DNA from: Clostridium sp. CAG:413 | GTDB taxonomy: Bacteria > Bacillota > Clostridia > Oscillospirales > Acutalibacteraceae | Direction: 5' to 3' | Length of the DNA: 17,170 bases | Assembly: GCA_000431775.1 (NCBI GenBank) | Contig: FR888195.1 | Span: 4,991-22,160 of the forward strand | Shown: piece by piece, positions 10,838 to 13,304 of the stretch | Layout: every line of letters starts with the position of its first letter | Position numbering within the stretch: the first letter of the stretch is position 1 | Translations under genes and position numbers: made by a program | The notes under the pieces: model-generated | Told to the model about the DNA's origin: nothing | Seen by the model: only the letters and a program-made list of their open reading frames with translations | Database searches by the model: none

Positions 10838-11789
10838 TGTCTTGTTCCGCTTCTGAATAGTCAACCTCAATAAAACCGTTGTTGATAAAGAGTTCCTCTT
10901 TCTCGTCGGCTTTATGGTTGGGATTACTAAGAAGAGTGTCGTTAAGCGAAGCCTTCAATTTGTCACAGCAAGGCTTGAATGACACAAAAGTAAGTCCACC
11001 GCCTATAACGCCGCCGACAACGGGAATAGTCTTTTTAAAGAAGCCGGCAAAAACGTCTTTCGTCATTTTGACACCGAACCATTTTGCTACGCTTTTAACA
11101 AGCGGATAAAGCGTTCCTTTGGTTAGCGCTGTGTTTAATAACTTCTTTTCTATGCCCTTTGCGAAAGCGTTTGCAATGGCCTTGATTGCATTATTGGCAC
11201 CTACAACGCCGTACATAACGCCCAAACAAACGATAAGTATGTTCATTGTTTCAGAGTCAAAACCTTGCGTTTCTTCATTAATACCTATTTCGGGAAAACC
11301 ATAGAGATACATCAGCTTTTGTGCTGCACGGAGCATATAACCGTAATACTGAATGATATCGGCGGGTATGGTCGCCGCCATAGCGGCTCCTCCGGGTGCG
11401 CCGAGAGCGGTGGATATTCCTGTTACGCAAAGCCTTTCATATTTTATTACATTTTCGGCAATGGATTCTATTTCCTCCTGTGATATCCCGGCTTGTGCAG
11501 GGGTGGTTGCTATTGCTTTGTCTATTACCTCTTTGGGTTGGGTCTTAATTAGCTCTTTTGCCAAAAAATCGTCTCGTCGGATTCTGATGCCGGGAGTTTT
11601 AAGACCCAATGTAATTATGTCCTCGATGTCAACTTTCCCGTCACCATTTAAGTCGATTTTTGAAACAACGCTGTCCTTTGACTTTGAAATTGTTTGTTTC
11701 CCTTTTGCCGCAAGCGATTTTGCAGCTTTCCCGGCTTTGTCAGTAAGGTTTTGCGTCATTTGGCCGATTGAATCTTTGTCCAATTTCAT
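10833..11789 (-). CDS. EcsC-like protein with an EF-hand/dockerin-type calcium loop
   Basis: This 318-residue protein begins with a Lys/Ala-rich helical segment (about 8-44). A calcium-loop motif follows, DLNGDGKVDIED (46-57), the 12-residue pattern of EF-hands and dockerins with D46, N48, D50, D54 and D57. The main part (about 100-285) carries glycine-rich hydrophobic stretches: GAPGGAAMAATIPADIIQYY (131-150), a hydrophobic helix at 184-197 and KTIPVVGGVIGGGL (253-266). This resembles EcsC-family proteins, whose function is poorly known. There is no signal peptide. The start is ATG 11789, 10 nt after AAAGGA; an upstream GTG at 11798 is too close to it. GC is visibly lower than its neighbours (25/60 in 11041-11100 against 42/60 in 14821-14880), hinting at different ancestry. 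A structured leader with a terminator precedes it. The family call is by eye only. Confidence 0.7.
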   Translation of the reverse strand: MKLDKDSIGQMTQNLTDKAGKAAKSLAAKGKQTISKSKDSVVSKIDLNGDGKVDIEDIITLGLKTPGIRIRRDDFLAKELIKTQPKEVIDKAIATTPAQAGISQEEIESIAENVIKYERLCVTGISTALGAPGGAAMAATIPADIIQYYGYMLRAAQKLMYLYGFPEIGINEETQGFDSETMNILIVCLGVMYGVVGANNAIKAIANAFAKGIEKKLLNTALTKGTLYPLVKSVAKWFGVKMTKDVFAGFFKKTIPVVGGVIGGGLTFVSFKPCCDKLKASLNDTLLSNPNHKADEKEELFINNGFIEVDYSEAEQDK

Positions 11790-11813
11790 TTGTACCACTT
11801 CCTTTAATTATTA

Positions 11814-11825
11814 AGCCGAACGGCT
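11814..11825 (-). promoter_or_regulatory. Small hairpin before the EcsC-like gene's ribosome site
   Basis: AGCCGAACGGCT is a 5-bp inverted repeat with a 2-nt centre, about 12-15 nt upstream of the AAAGGA site of the EcsC-like gene. It could modulate ribosome access, but it is short and may be chance. Confidence 0.25.
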
Positions 11826-11856
11826 CATAGAAGAGCTTGTATTTTTCGCGTGAAAT

Positions 11857-11892
11857 CAAAAAAGTGCATAGCCCCTTTCAGAGCTATGCACT
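11857..11892 (-). terminator. Intrinsic terminator inside the EcsC-like gene's leader
   Basis: On the minus strand, AGTGCATAGC (11883-11892) pairs with GCTATGCACT (11863-11872) in a perfect 10-bp stem with a 10-nt loop, followed by a run of T (11857-11862). It lies about 67 nt upstream of the start codon and downstream of a promoter and structured RNA, the position of a riboswitch expression platform. Confidence 0.9.
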
Positions 11893-12040
11893 CGAAAAAC
11901 ATACAAACTCTGACATAAGGTTGCTATACACTTACATTATCCTCACCACAAAGTTCAGAAAGCCAGAGCGTACGCTTTTACTAAAGTAGCGTACACTTTG
12001 CGGTGAAAATAATACTCCTATTTTAATGTAAGTATATAGC
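11857..12040 (-). ncRNA. Structured leader RNA: candidate riboswitch or attenuator
   Basis: From a predicted start at about 12040, the minus-strand RNA folds into three nested stems. P1 pairs 12024-12040 with 11923-11939 (17 bp, one G-U). P2 pairs 11996-12005 with 11944-11953 (10 bp, one G-U). P3 pairs 11988-11994 with 11970-11976 (7 bp). The internal loops are asymmetric (about 18 nt on the 5' side of P1/P2; 16 nt on the 3' side of P2/P3). A terminator follows at 11857-11892. The P1 3' arm can also pair with the terminator 3' arm (10/10), and the P1 5' arm with the terminator 5' arm (9/10), so the two states exclude each other. It is about 184 nt long. A 6S-like standalone RNA is the main alternative. 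I do not recognise a known riboswitch core. Confidence 0.65.
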
Positions 12041-12046
12041 ATAATC

Positions 12047-12075
12047 ATTATATCATAACAATTCTGGAATGTCTA
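12047..12075 (-). promoter_or_regulatory. Promoter of the structured leader RNA (minus strand)
   Basis: TAGACA (12070-12075) and TATAAT (12047-12052) are 17 bp apart on the minus strand, with TGA directly upstream of the -10 (extended -10). The predicted start at 12040-12042 coincides with the first paired base of stem P1, which supports the call. Confidence 0.8.
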
Positions 12076-12080
12076 CATAT

Positions 12081-12128
12081 TTAAAAAGAAATCCTCCGTA
12101 ACGGCCCAGCCGCTGCGGAGGATTTTTC
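12081..12128. terminator. Terminator after isocitrate dehydrogenase, usable on both strands
   Basis: AATCCTCCG (12090-12098) pairs with CGGAGGATT (12116-12124), with an inner CGGC/GCCG stem. T-runs lie on both sides: TTTCTTTTT after it on the minus strand and TTTTT on the plus strand. It ends the icd transcript just upstream of the leader RNA promoter. Confidence 0.85.
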
Positions 12129-12137
12129 ATGTCGTAA

Positions 12138-13304
12138 TTATGCGAGCTTTGAGAGGGTATCCATTACATAGTTGCCGAATTCTTCACAGGTGCAGCCGTC
12201 GGCTCTGCCGGTAATATGGAGCTTCTTCTCCTCATACATGCAGATGTCGAGCGCTCTCTCGAGCTTGTCTGCCTCGGCCTGCTTGCCGATGTGAGAGAGG
12301 AGCATGACCGCAGCCCTGAGCATTGAGCACGGGTCTGCATACTTACCTCTGCCCTCGCGCACCATTCTGGGAGCCGAGCCGTGGATAGCCTCAAACATGG
12401 CGTATTTCTTGCCGATGTTTGCGCTGCCCGCCGTGCCGACGCCGCCCTGGAACTCAGCGGCCTCGTCGGTGATTATGTCGCCGTAAAGGTTGGGCAGGAC
12501 GAATACCTTGAAGTCCTTGCGCCTCTTGGGGTCGATGAGTTTTGCGGTGGTGATGTCGATATACCACTCATCAGTCGTTATCTCGGGATATTCCTTGCCT
12601 ATCTCCTTGCAGAGGTTGAGGAATTTGCCGTCGGTGGTCTTTATGACGTTTGCCTTTTGGATTATTGATACCCTGTCCTTGTGGTTTCTTCTTGCATAGT
12701 CATATGCGAGCCTTGCTATCCTCTGCGAGCCCTCGGTGGTGGTGACAACGAAGTCCATAGCGAGATCGTCGGTAACATTCACGCCCTTGGAGCCGACGGC
12801 GTATGCGCCCTCGGTGTTCTCGCGGAAGAAGGTCCAGTCAATGCCCTCAGAGGGGACCTTGACGGGGCGAAGGTTTGCAAAGAGGTCAAGCGCCTTCCTC
12901 ATTGCGACGTTTGCGCTCTCGATATTCGGCCACGGGTCGCCCGCCTGCGGGGTGGTGGTGGGGCCTTTGAGGATAACGGGGCACTGCTTCAGCTCCTCGA
13001 GCACGTCGTCGGGGATAGCCTTGTTGACGGCAACTCTGTTCTCAATGGTGAGGCCGTCGATGCTCTTGAATTCGATCTTACCGCTGTCAACGTCGCTCTT
13101 GAGCAGGAATTTGAGCACTCTTGCGGCCTCGCTCGTGATGATGGGGCCTATGCCGTCGCCGCCGCAAACGCCTATGGTCAGCTTATCGAGCTTTGAGTAG
13201 TCGATGAAGTCGCCCTGCTTCTTTATTGCTTCGCTTCTTGCATCCTGCTCTCTGATAAGAGCTTCAAATTTGTCGAGCGCGTTTTTGATTTGAGCTTCAG
13301 TCAT
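12138..13304 (-). CDS. icd: Isocitrate dehydrogenase (isocitrate/isopropylmalate DH family)
   Basis: This 388-residue enzyme oxidises and decarboxylates isocitrate to 2-oxoglutarate. Substrate and metal residues are visible: S130, N132 and R136 in ESANVAMR, R146 in LRP, R161 and Y168 in RENTEGAY, K222 in KANVIK, and the metal aspartates in NLYGDIITDEAAE (272-284). The segment HGSAPRM (309-315 region) carries Arg-Met where NADP enzymes have Lys-Tyr and NAD enzymes usually Asp-Ile, so the coenzyme is unclear. Homoisocitrate or isopropylmalate dehydrogenase is less likely because the ESANVAMRKALDLFANLRP stretch matches isocitrate enzymes and aconitase is next door. The start is ATG 13304, 1 nt after the aconitase stop, with GGAG as ribosome site; a longer frame would overlap aconitase. 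It is co-transcribed with aconitase and followed by a terminator. Confidence 0.9.
   Translation of the reverse strand: MTEAQIKNALDKFEALIREQDARSEAIKKQGDFIDYSKLDKLTIGVCGGDGIGPIITSEAARVLKFLLKSDVDSGKIEFKSIDGLTIENRVAVNKAIPDDVLEELKQCPVILKGPTTTPQAGDPWPNIESANVAMRKALDLFANLRPVKVPSEGIDWTFFRENTEGAYAVGSKGVNVTDDLAMDFVVTTTEGSQRIARLAYDYARRNHKDRVSIIQKANVIKTTDGKFLNLCKEIGKEYPEITTDEWYIDITTAKLIDPKRRKDFKVFVLPNLYGDIITDEAAEFQGGVGTAGSANIGKKYAMFEAIHGSAPRMVREGRGKYADPCSMLRAAVMLLSHIGKQAEADKLERALDICMYEEKKLHITGRADGCTCEEFGNYVMDTLSKLA

Follow-up and report, generated by a model that had tools for sequence, protein, structure and literature searches.

T-box leaders carry a long 5′ hairpin followed by an antiterminator/terminator, LoaP-dependent leaders in Bacillota combine a leader hairpin with control of terminators by antitermination, RAT and put RNAs are antitermination leaders that bind a protein or the polymerase, and 6S RNA is a long interrupted hairpin that begins at the first transcribed base. 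In a window of 17,170 nucleotides from Clostridium sp. CAG:413 (the whole stretch of DNA that was analyzed; contig FR888195.1), an initial annotation had described an unrecognized riboswitch- or attenuator-like leader ahead of an ecsC-like gene. Our analysis leads us to read this leader as one copy of a new, widespread class of cis-acting transcription-attenuation leaders, a reading drawn from sequence comparison to which we give a probability of about 0.8. As in transcriptional riboswitches, there is a promoter, a structured 5′ domain, a mutually exclusive antiterminator and terminator, a gene directly downstream, and covariation, but the family has diverse target genes, is not known to bind a ligand and showed no link between hairpin and antiterminator. 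The order of long 5′ hairpin and then antiterminator/terminator is that of T-box leaders, but the family lacks a Rfam match and an amino-acid theme (among the 25 of 60 downstream protein families listed), and by eye no T-box sequence was noticed in the leader. Leader hairpin and antitermination control of terminators are shared with LoaP-dependent leaders, but a second NusG-family protein is absent from 27 of 28 genomes rich in the leader RNA. With 6S RNA the leader shares a long, interrupted hairpin that opens at the first base transcribed, but this leader has an antiterminator/terminator and a gene, occurs in many copies per genome and has no Rfam match (E up to 10).

The window leader, the ecsC-like gene and icd share the minus strand, and icd is followed by an inverted repeat (12125-12089, minus strand) that lies upstream of the leader promoter and may be the icd terminator. 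The features of the locus are as follows:

12075-12047, minus strand: promoter, with -35 TAGACA (12075-12070), 17 nt, and -10 TATAAT (12052-12047) with a TG extension; 11 of 12 consensus matches
near G12040, minus strand: predicted transcription start of the window leader, placed from the promoter
12042-11858, minus strand: whole leader RNA, the end-to-end match to covariance model R2
12041-12025, minus strand: P1 5′ arm, 16-17 pairs with 11938-11922
12012-11995, minus strand: P2 5′ arm, partner 11954-11937
11994-11970, minus strand: P3 and apical loop ACTTTAGTAAA, helix 11994-11988/11976-11970, from the fold
11954-11937, minus strand: P2 3′ arm, partner 12012-11995
11938-11922, minus strand: P1 3′ arm, partner of 12041-12025, from the fold and the model alignment
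11913-11900, minus strand: antiterminator 5′ strand (AT5) TCAGAGTTTGTATG, predicted to pair with the terminator 5′ arm at -14.1 kcal/mol in the window copy
11893-11862, minus strand: intrinsic terminator hairpin, 14 pairs with G-U counted, U-tract to 11858
11852-11825, minus strand: E2, a second conserved element, CACGCGAAAAATACAAGCTCTTCTATGA, between the window terminator and the ecsC-like ATG
11805-11795, minus strand: Shine-Dalgarno sequence AAAGGAAGTGG of the ecsC-like gene
11789-10833, minus strand: ecsC-like gene, ATG at 11789, 68 nt past the end of the U-tract at 11858

The architecture described in the initial annotation is borne out by this layout, namely an extended -10 promoter (TAGACA-17-TATAAT), a stem at the first bases of the transcript enclosing two nested stems (P1, P2 and P3 are all present) and a terminator ahead of the gene. 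The 188-nt window leader folds at -73.6 kcal/mol (z -8.6) and the window hairpin alone has z -7.1, with 0 of 200 shuffles equal in both cases. The 4-nt gap from the -10 to the model start in the window copy recurs in 83 of 112 family copies, more often than any other gap, and the commonest apical loop in the family is ACTTTGGTAAAAAGT, against ACTTTAGTAAA in the window copy. Two small open reading frames lie inside the window leader, one of 36 amino acids from an ATG at 12042 and one of 15 amino acids from a GTG at 11931, the latter ending in the terminator 5′ arm. The sequences flanking the window terminator are complementary, with 47 of 3000 shuffles equally good.

By DNA comparison the leader seemed an orphan, and it was the structure model alone that reversed this view. 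Plain DNA searches with the window element identified no relative among phages and plasmids, none in 83 loci of ecsC homologs (best E 0.12) and none in 45 genomes of the nearest genus, that of G888 (best E 0.003 over 32 nt), which we infer from icd to be in or near the genus of the window; one loop-sequence pattern looked for in viral contigs also had no match. Using R1, a covariance model made from the window hairpin alone and without the terminator, we identified matches in 658 kb of sequence at L001 and L002 (E 0.002) and L057 (E 0.015), all of them upstream of ecsC-like operons. The terminator pattern common to the R1 matches, TTTTTCGGTGCG-N-CGCACTTTTT, led to 21 contigs of the IMG/VR virus collection, which amount to 15 distinct sequences, and a TG-extended -10 precedes the hairpin in all 21. 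Of the 15 distinct virus-collection sequences, R1 itself hits nine at P1, with E up to 0.05 (L194, 4.8e-6; L196, 7.6e-4; L176, 9.1e-4; also L198, L208, L201, L199, L205 and L211) and misses the other six (L192, L195, L197, L202, L203 and L206) as well as L063. On its reverse strand the window hairpin still reaches 24.8 bits with R1, as high as the weaker R1 matches, so that R1 partly favors any long hairpin of like composition and its matches alone are insufficient.

A second model, R2, is cleaner. It was built from a MAFFT alignment of 12 members (11 from the virus collection plus L001) with the window, L057 and L063 left out, and it recovers these three from 675 kb with E values of 4.2e-8, 3.4e-14 and 1.3e-6, respectively, although in L063 it aligns only part of the hairpin. 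All 21 virus-collection contigs are matched, 11 of these being in R2 itself, and the best background score in 72 other loci (270 kb) is 20.2 bits, while reverse strands of true members reach up to 33 bits. The window leader scores 47.3 bits over 12042-11858, and we class it as a divergent copy of the family. The covariance-model search, which the initial annotation had named as a check, placed the same leader ahead of other ecsC-like operons (L001, L002, L057, L063 and L233); in L233 the RNA stands before an operon whose second gene encodes a protein 41% identical to the window protein.

The family keeps its folding while its sequence changes. In the 12-member MAFFT alignment, which was not fitted to a model but supplied part of its own structure, 93.3% of cells are paired, double changes occur in 11 of 34 pairs (5.3 when shuffled, 1 of 500) and the covariation score is 0.249 against 0.143 shuffled (0 of 500). 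For 48 members aligned to R2, 94.0% of 1582 cells are paired, 23 of 34 pairs show double changes (against 15.5 in shuffles, 0 of 500) and a score of 0.433 stands against 0.168 (0 of 500), with 225 double-change cells against 74 in shuffles. Because this second alignment follows the structure, it is biased in favor of it, and the statistics of both alignments ignore relatedness. Sliding the partners in the same 48 members, as a control, gave pairing of at most 52.6% and a score of at most 0.124. Compensatory changes, another of the checks proposed at the outset, were found throughout: 9 of the 12 modelled P1 pairs and 6 of the 11 terminator pairs have double changes, and pairs of P3 and P4 covary as well. 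The hairpin domain upstream of the expression platform is therefore conserved and structured in these 48 members, and the region inside P1 (P2, P3 and P4) has a mean z of -4.9, with z below -2 in 47 of 48 (the exception is L063). Sequence conservation is seen in the apical loop and in an AATA after P1, and much of the hairpin is a near-perfect helix of free sequence.

The initial annotation had proposed that the arms of P1 exchange partners with those of the terminator. The complementarity it described is strong in the window copy, where the P1 3′ arm pairs with the terminator 3′ arm at -15.7 kcal/mol and the P1 5′ arm with the terminator 5′ arm at -9.9, and where 0 of 3000 shuffled terminators pair equally well with either P1 arm. 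It is not, however, a trait of the family: across 47 members the 3′ arms pair with their own partner at -7.14 and with mismatched partners at -7.11 (40 of 100 reshufflings equal; the window ranks 1 of 47), and the 5′ arms at -5.61 and -5.79 (81 of 100 equal), so that exchange of the P1 arms fails as a general switch. The conserved switch is instead the predicted antiterminator, in which the segment after P1 (AT5) competes for the terminator 5′ arm (T5). Its own pairing is -13.2 against -9.38 mismatched (sd 0.47) in 47 members, and in 45 non-redundant pairs -10.46 against -7.68 (0 of 300). A small excess is also found for the P1 3′ arm with T5 (-4.48 against -3.83, 0 of 100) and for the P1 5′ arm with T3 (-4.53 against -4.19, 1 of 100) in 47 members, and is too weak to be a switch alone. 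These pairing tests cover 47 of the 48 members, L216 being unparsed in the AT5:T5 test and L063 misaligned in the P1-arm and pseudoknot tests. The last of these looked in 47 members for a link between hairpin and antiterminator and found none; a pseudoknot of AT5 with the strand that follows P3 was rejected, with 11.5 for own and 11.52 for mismatched pairing.

In the window copy and in the family, an intrinsic terminator lies between promoter and start codon, together with a mutually exclusive antiterminator conserved by covariation (own against mismatched pairing). In approximately 13 of the 48 members the antiterminator is, by eye, the minimum-energy fold. When the window transcript is folded at growing lengths, the minimum-energy structure has the antiterminator until the terminator 3′ arm is complete and the terminator from then on, and the fold of the full leader retains P1 and the terminator, which implies that readthrough needs an active cause. 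We propose that transcription would start at the first base pairs of the long hairpin P1-P2-P3/P4, and that AT5, by pairing with the terminator 5′ arm, would form an antiterminator hairpin around U5CG; with AT5 unpaired, the terminator would form and RNA polymerase would stop before the gene. A signal read by the conserved hairpin, with a ligand, a protein and the polymerase as candidates, would bias this choice, and each copy would set readthrough into its own downstream gene, the ecsC-like gene in the window. Promoter, hairpin, exclusive antiterminator and terminator with covariation, and association with genes are evident in the compared sequences. We infer from them that the leader is transcribed, that readthrough is regulated by attenuation and that one signal is sensed.

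The association with genes was examined in 112 genomic copies, drawn from three result sets (30, 43 and 39) and being among the best-scoring rather than a random sample; tandem partners (e.g., in L215, L226, L270 and L281), L244 (a repeat of L001) and all virus-collection loci were excluded. A same-strand open reading frame with a ribosome site starts within 160 nt of the terminator in 97 of these 112 copies, against 9 of 112 for a mirrored control upstream of the promoter, and in 75 of the 97 the gene start lies 14-30 nt past the terminator (median 21). The remaining 15 copies have no gene by the open reading frame rule, and in one of them, L304, another promoter of the same kind follows. The nearest genus, with 25 of 30 loci used, has a gene start after the terminator in 22 of 25, and in the virus-collection contigs an open reading frame starts 1-42 nt after the terminator in 18 of 21. 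The promoter also recurs, with a -10 matching at least 5 of 6 positions in 102 of the 112 copies, a TG in 88 and a -35 matching at least 4 of 6 in 77, these being best matches in a short search interval, counted alongside no shuffled control.

The predicted class reaches far beyond ecsC: its copies also precede genes for surface leucine-rich-repeat proteins, other genes whose products look secreted or that are accessory, and genes on contigs of the virus collection. Among 92 of the 97 downstream proteins that were scanned, 13 contain LRR_5 (BspA-type leucine-rich repeats), 5 Cu_amine_oxidN1 (the copper amine oxidase N-terminal domain) and 3 AMP-binding, and no metabolic theme is common to the 25 of 60 families listed. 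A crude rule assigns a hydrophobic N-terminus to 53 of the 97 and a lipobox-like motif to 18. In the virus collection, the first gene of L176 encodes a PASTA-domain protein, and those of L192, L198, L203, L205 and L208 are similar by eye. A peptide of about 41 amino acids often follows the first gene in the virus-collection loci, and in L001 a similar 39-amino-acid peptide is encoded between leader and ecsC. A small, membrane-like peptide some 40 amino acids long, ending in GGLWLIWILIRYLRNNS, accompanies the RNA in L176, L194, L195, L203, L205, L208, L209, L211 and L212. Two of these peptides were scanned, and neither has a Pfam family.

Our survey of genomes showed R2 matches in 104 of 295 from the order to which G009 belongs (E up to 0.01), in 61 of 245 from the class of G006 (E up to 0.001), and in 24 of 41 from the G888 genus, where a genome has 1 to 7 (E up to 0.1); we take the order to be Oscillospirales and the class Clostridia. 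The three samples overlap, and the counts are lower bounds, with 10 to 12 candidates scored per genome in the G009 and G006 sets and 72 in the G888 genus. Up to 12 leader copies were scored per genome, and several genomes have at least 10 to 12. Tandem arrangements also occur: L215 (1100-1660) contains three complete RNA copies, each with its own promoter and terminator, and tandem partners are present in L226, L270 and L281. The class is therefore abundant, in about a third and a quarter of the genomes of the two larger samples, yet neither the window nor six member loci have a match in Rfam 15. We consider it possible, at somewhat short of an even chance, that one signal and one RNA fold, used a dozen or more times per genome, serve a large undescribed regulon of accessory genes and genes for surface and secreted proteins, scattered through Clostridia-type genomes, with virus-collection contigs bearing the same switch before cargo genes. 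Were a single signal sensed, the RNA would mark a switch shared by surface proteins and mobile cargo, and the models, the switch strands and testable mutants would give a direct handle on that signal.

The tandem units with their own promoters are odd for a plain leader, and together with the complete promoter-hairpin-terminator units and the many copies per genome they would suit stand-alone small RNAs that act in trans, with the neighboring gene served by its own promoter; in the window such a promoter might be provided by E2, whose second half resembles a -10. We consider this improbable, since 75 of 97 copies have the gene start 14-30 nt past the terminator, with almost no space for a further promoter, and a conserved antiterminator would be pointless for a plain small RNA. 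Dispersed and tandem copies with inverted repeat ends could also be produced by a MITE-like mobile repeat that happens to carry a promoter and a terminator, but the hairpin sequences vary between copies while their folding is kept, and both orientation and spacing to genes are fixed (97 of 112 copies; 75 of 97 at 14-30 nt). An element found away from genes with target-site duplications, which the initial annotation had named as grounds for abandoning its proposal, is not what we observe: the copies stand at gene starts (97 of 112, against 9 of 112 for the control). At the window copy, looked at by eye, no target-site duplication is seen. The mobile-repeat explanation is very improbable.

The attenuation-leader reading itself has two narrower forms, whose probabilities are contained in its own and do not add to it. 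Were the leader a strict riboswitch, P1-P4 would bind a small molecule directly, as the conserved apical loop, the AATA after P1, the covarying hairpin and the antiterminator/terminator switch might suggest; the missing metabolic theme among the downstream genes (92 proteins, 25 of 60 families listed) and the large share of near-perfect helix of free sequence make this form unlikely, in our view, though a real contender. By analogy with RAT and put RNAs, the hairpin might instead bind a protein or the polymerase, and the presence of the same RNA before unrelated genes and in virus-collection contigs would suit one trans-acting factor or a polymerase-modifying RNA; we regard this form as tentative, and the one candidate factor examined, a NusG paralog such as LoaP, is absent. 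A second PF02357 protein occurs in 1 of 28 genomes with at least 5 copies, and two or more occur in 7 of 30 genomes with no match, so that a NusG paralog is disfavored as the trans factor, the NusG-family protein being single in the other 27 of the 28.

The leader was called unrecognized in the initial annotation, and our searches agree. At the gathering score, the window has no match in Rfam 15, and a scan of 11780-12140 with E up to 10 gave chance-level matches only (the best at 18.5 bits, where the gathering score is 45). The Rfam models of 6S RNA and T-box have no match in the window either; a 6S hit had been named as evidence against the proposal, and it is absent in the scan with E up to 10. 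In 26 other loci, among them the members L001, L057, L063, L176, L178 and L192, no Rfam 15 model matches the leader RNA. Our literature search on EcsC with riboswitch, on the EcsC family protein and on structured RNA surveys met no description of the leader in the literature covered, which included the surveys PMC8632094, PMC11109978 and PMC8040213, and an unnamed candidate in the supplements of these surveys may be the same RNA. The leader family is apparently undescribed, which these Rfam 15 scans and literature searches indicate rather than prove.

The gene downstream of the window leader has a history of its own. Among 120 relatives listed, the ecsC-like protein has three at 97-100% identity and the rest at 74% or less, which suggests horizontal transfer of the gene; icd has many relatives at 91-94% among the matches listed (90-92% for icd of the G888 genus), and an ecsC homolog is present in only 3 of 45 genomes of that genus, at 38% identity or less. 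Pfam EcsC has no match in the window protein, PF12787 is found in three of the relatives listed, and a weak EF-hand-like stretch (E 0.003) falls below the Pfam cut-off.

Since the window ATG lies 68 nt past the terminator with E2 between them, ecsC might be under an additional control or have another start. E2 has the pattern CGCGAAAWWTACA-nnn-CCTNWWRTGR, and 16 of 83 ecsC-type loci carry its core on the ecsC strand (including L006, L010, L034, L044, L050 and L060; Markov expectation 0.0), with two matches on the opposite strand, both at palindromic sites of L001 and L002. Two exact E2 patterns identified 38 stretches in the virus collection (L156-L193), where E2 is usually followed by an open reading frame and often stands directly after a terminator-like hairpin (by eye). 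From its sequence, E2 could be a promoter-type element, with a TATAAT-like second half, or a 5′-UTR RNA that hides the Shine-Dalgarno sequence; our literature search found no paper holding the E2 strings. Upstream of ecsC, E2 precedes MerR-like regulator genes (by eye) in L034, L044, L064, L070 and L076, and these five loci contain a further common stretch, AAAAGGGTATTGCTAT, which might belong to a different structured leader. In one virus-collection contig (L160, 12990-12903, minus strand), a pemK RNA (RF02913) directly follows an E2-like sequence, whose -10-like half overlaps with the first conserved bases of the pemK RNA; the structure of this RNA is different from that of the leader, the likeness being one of E2 neighborhood.
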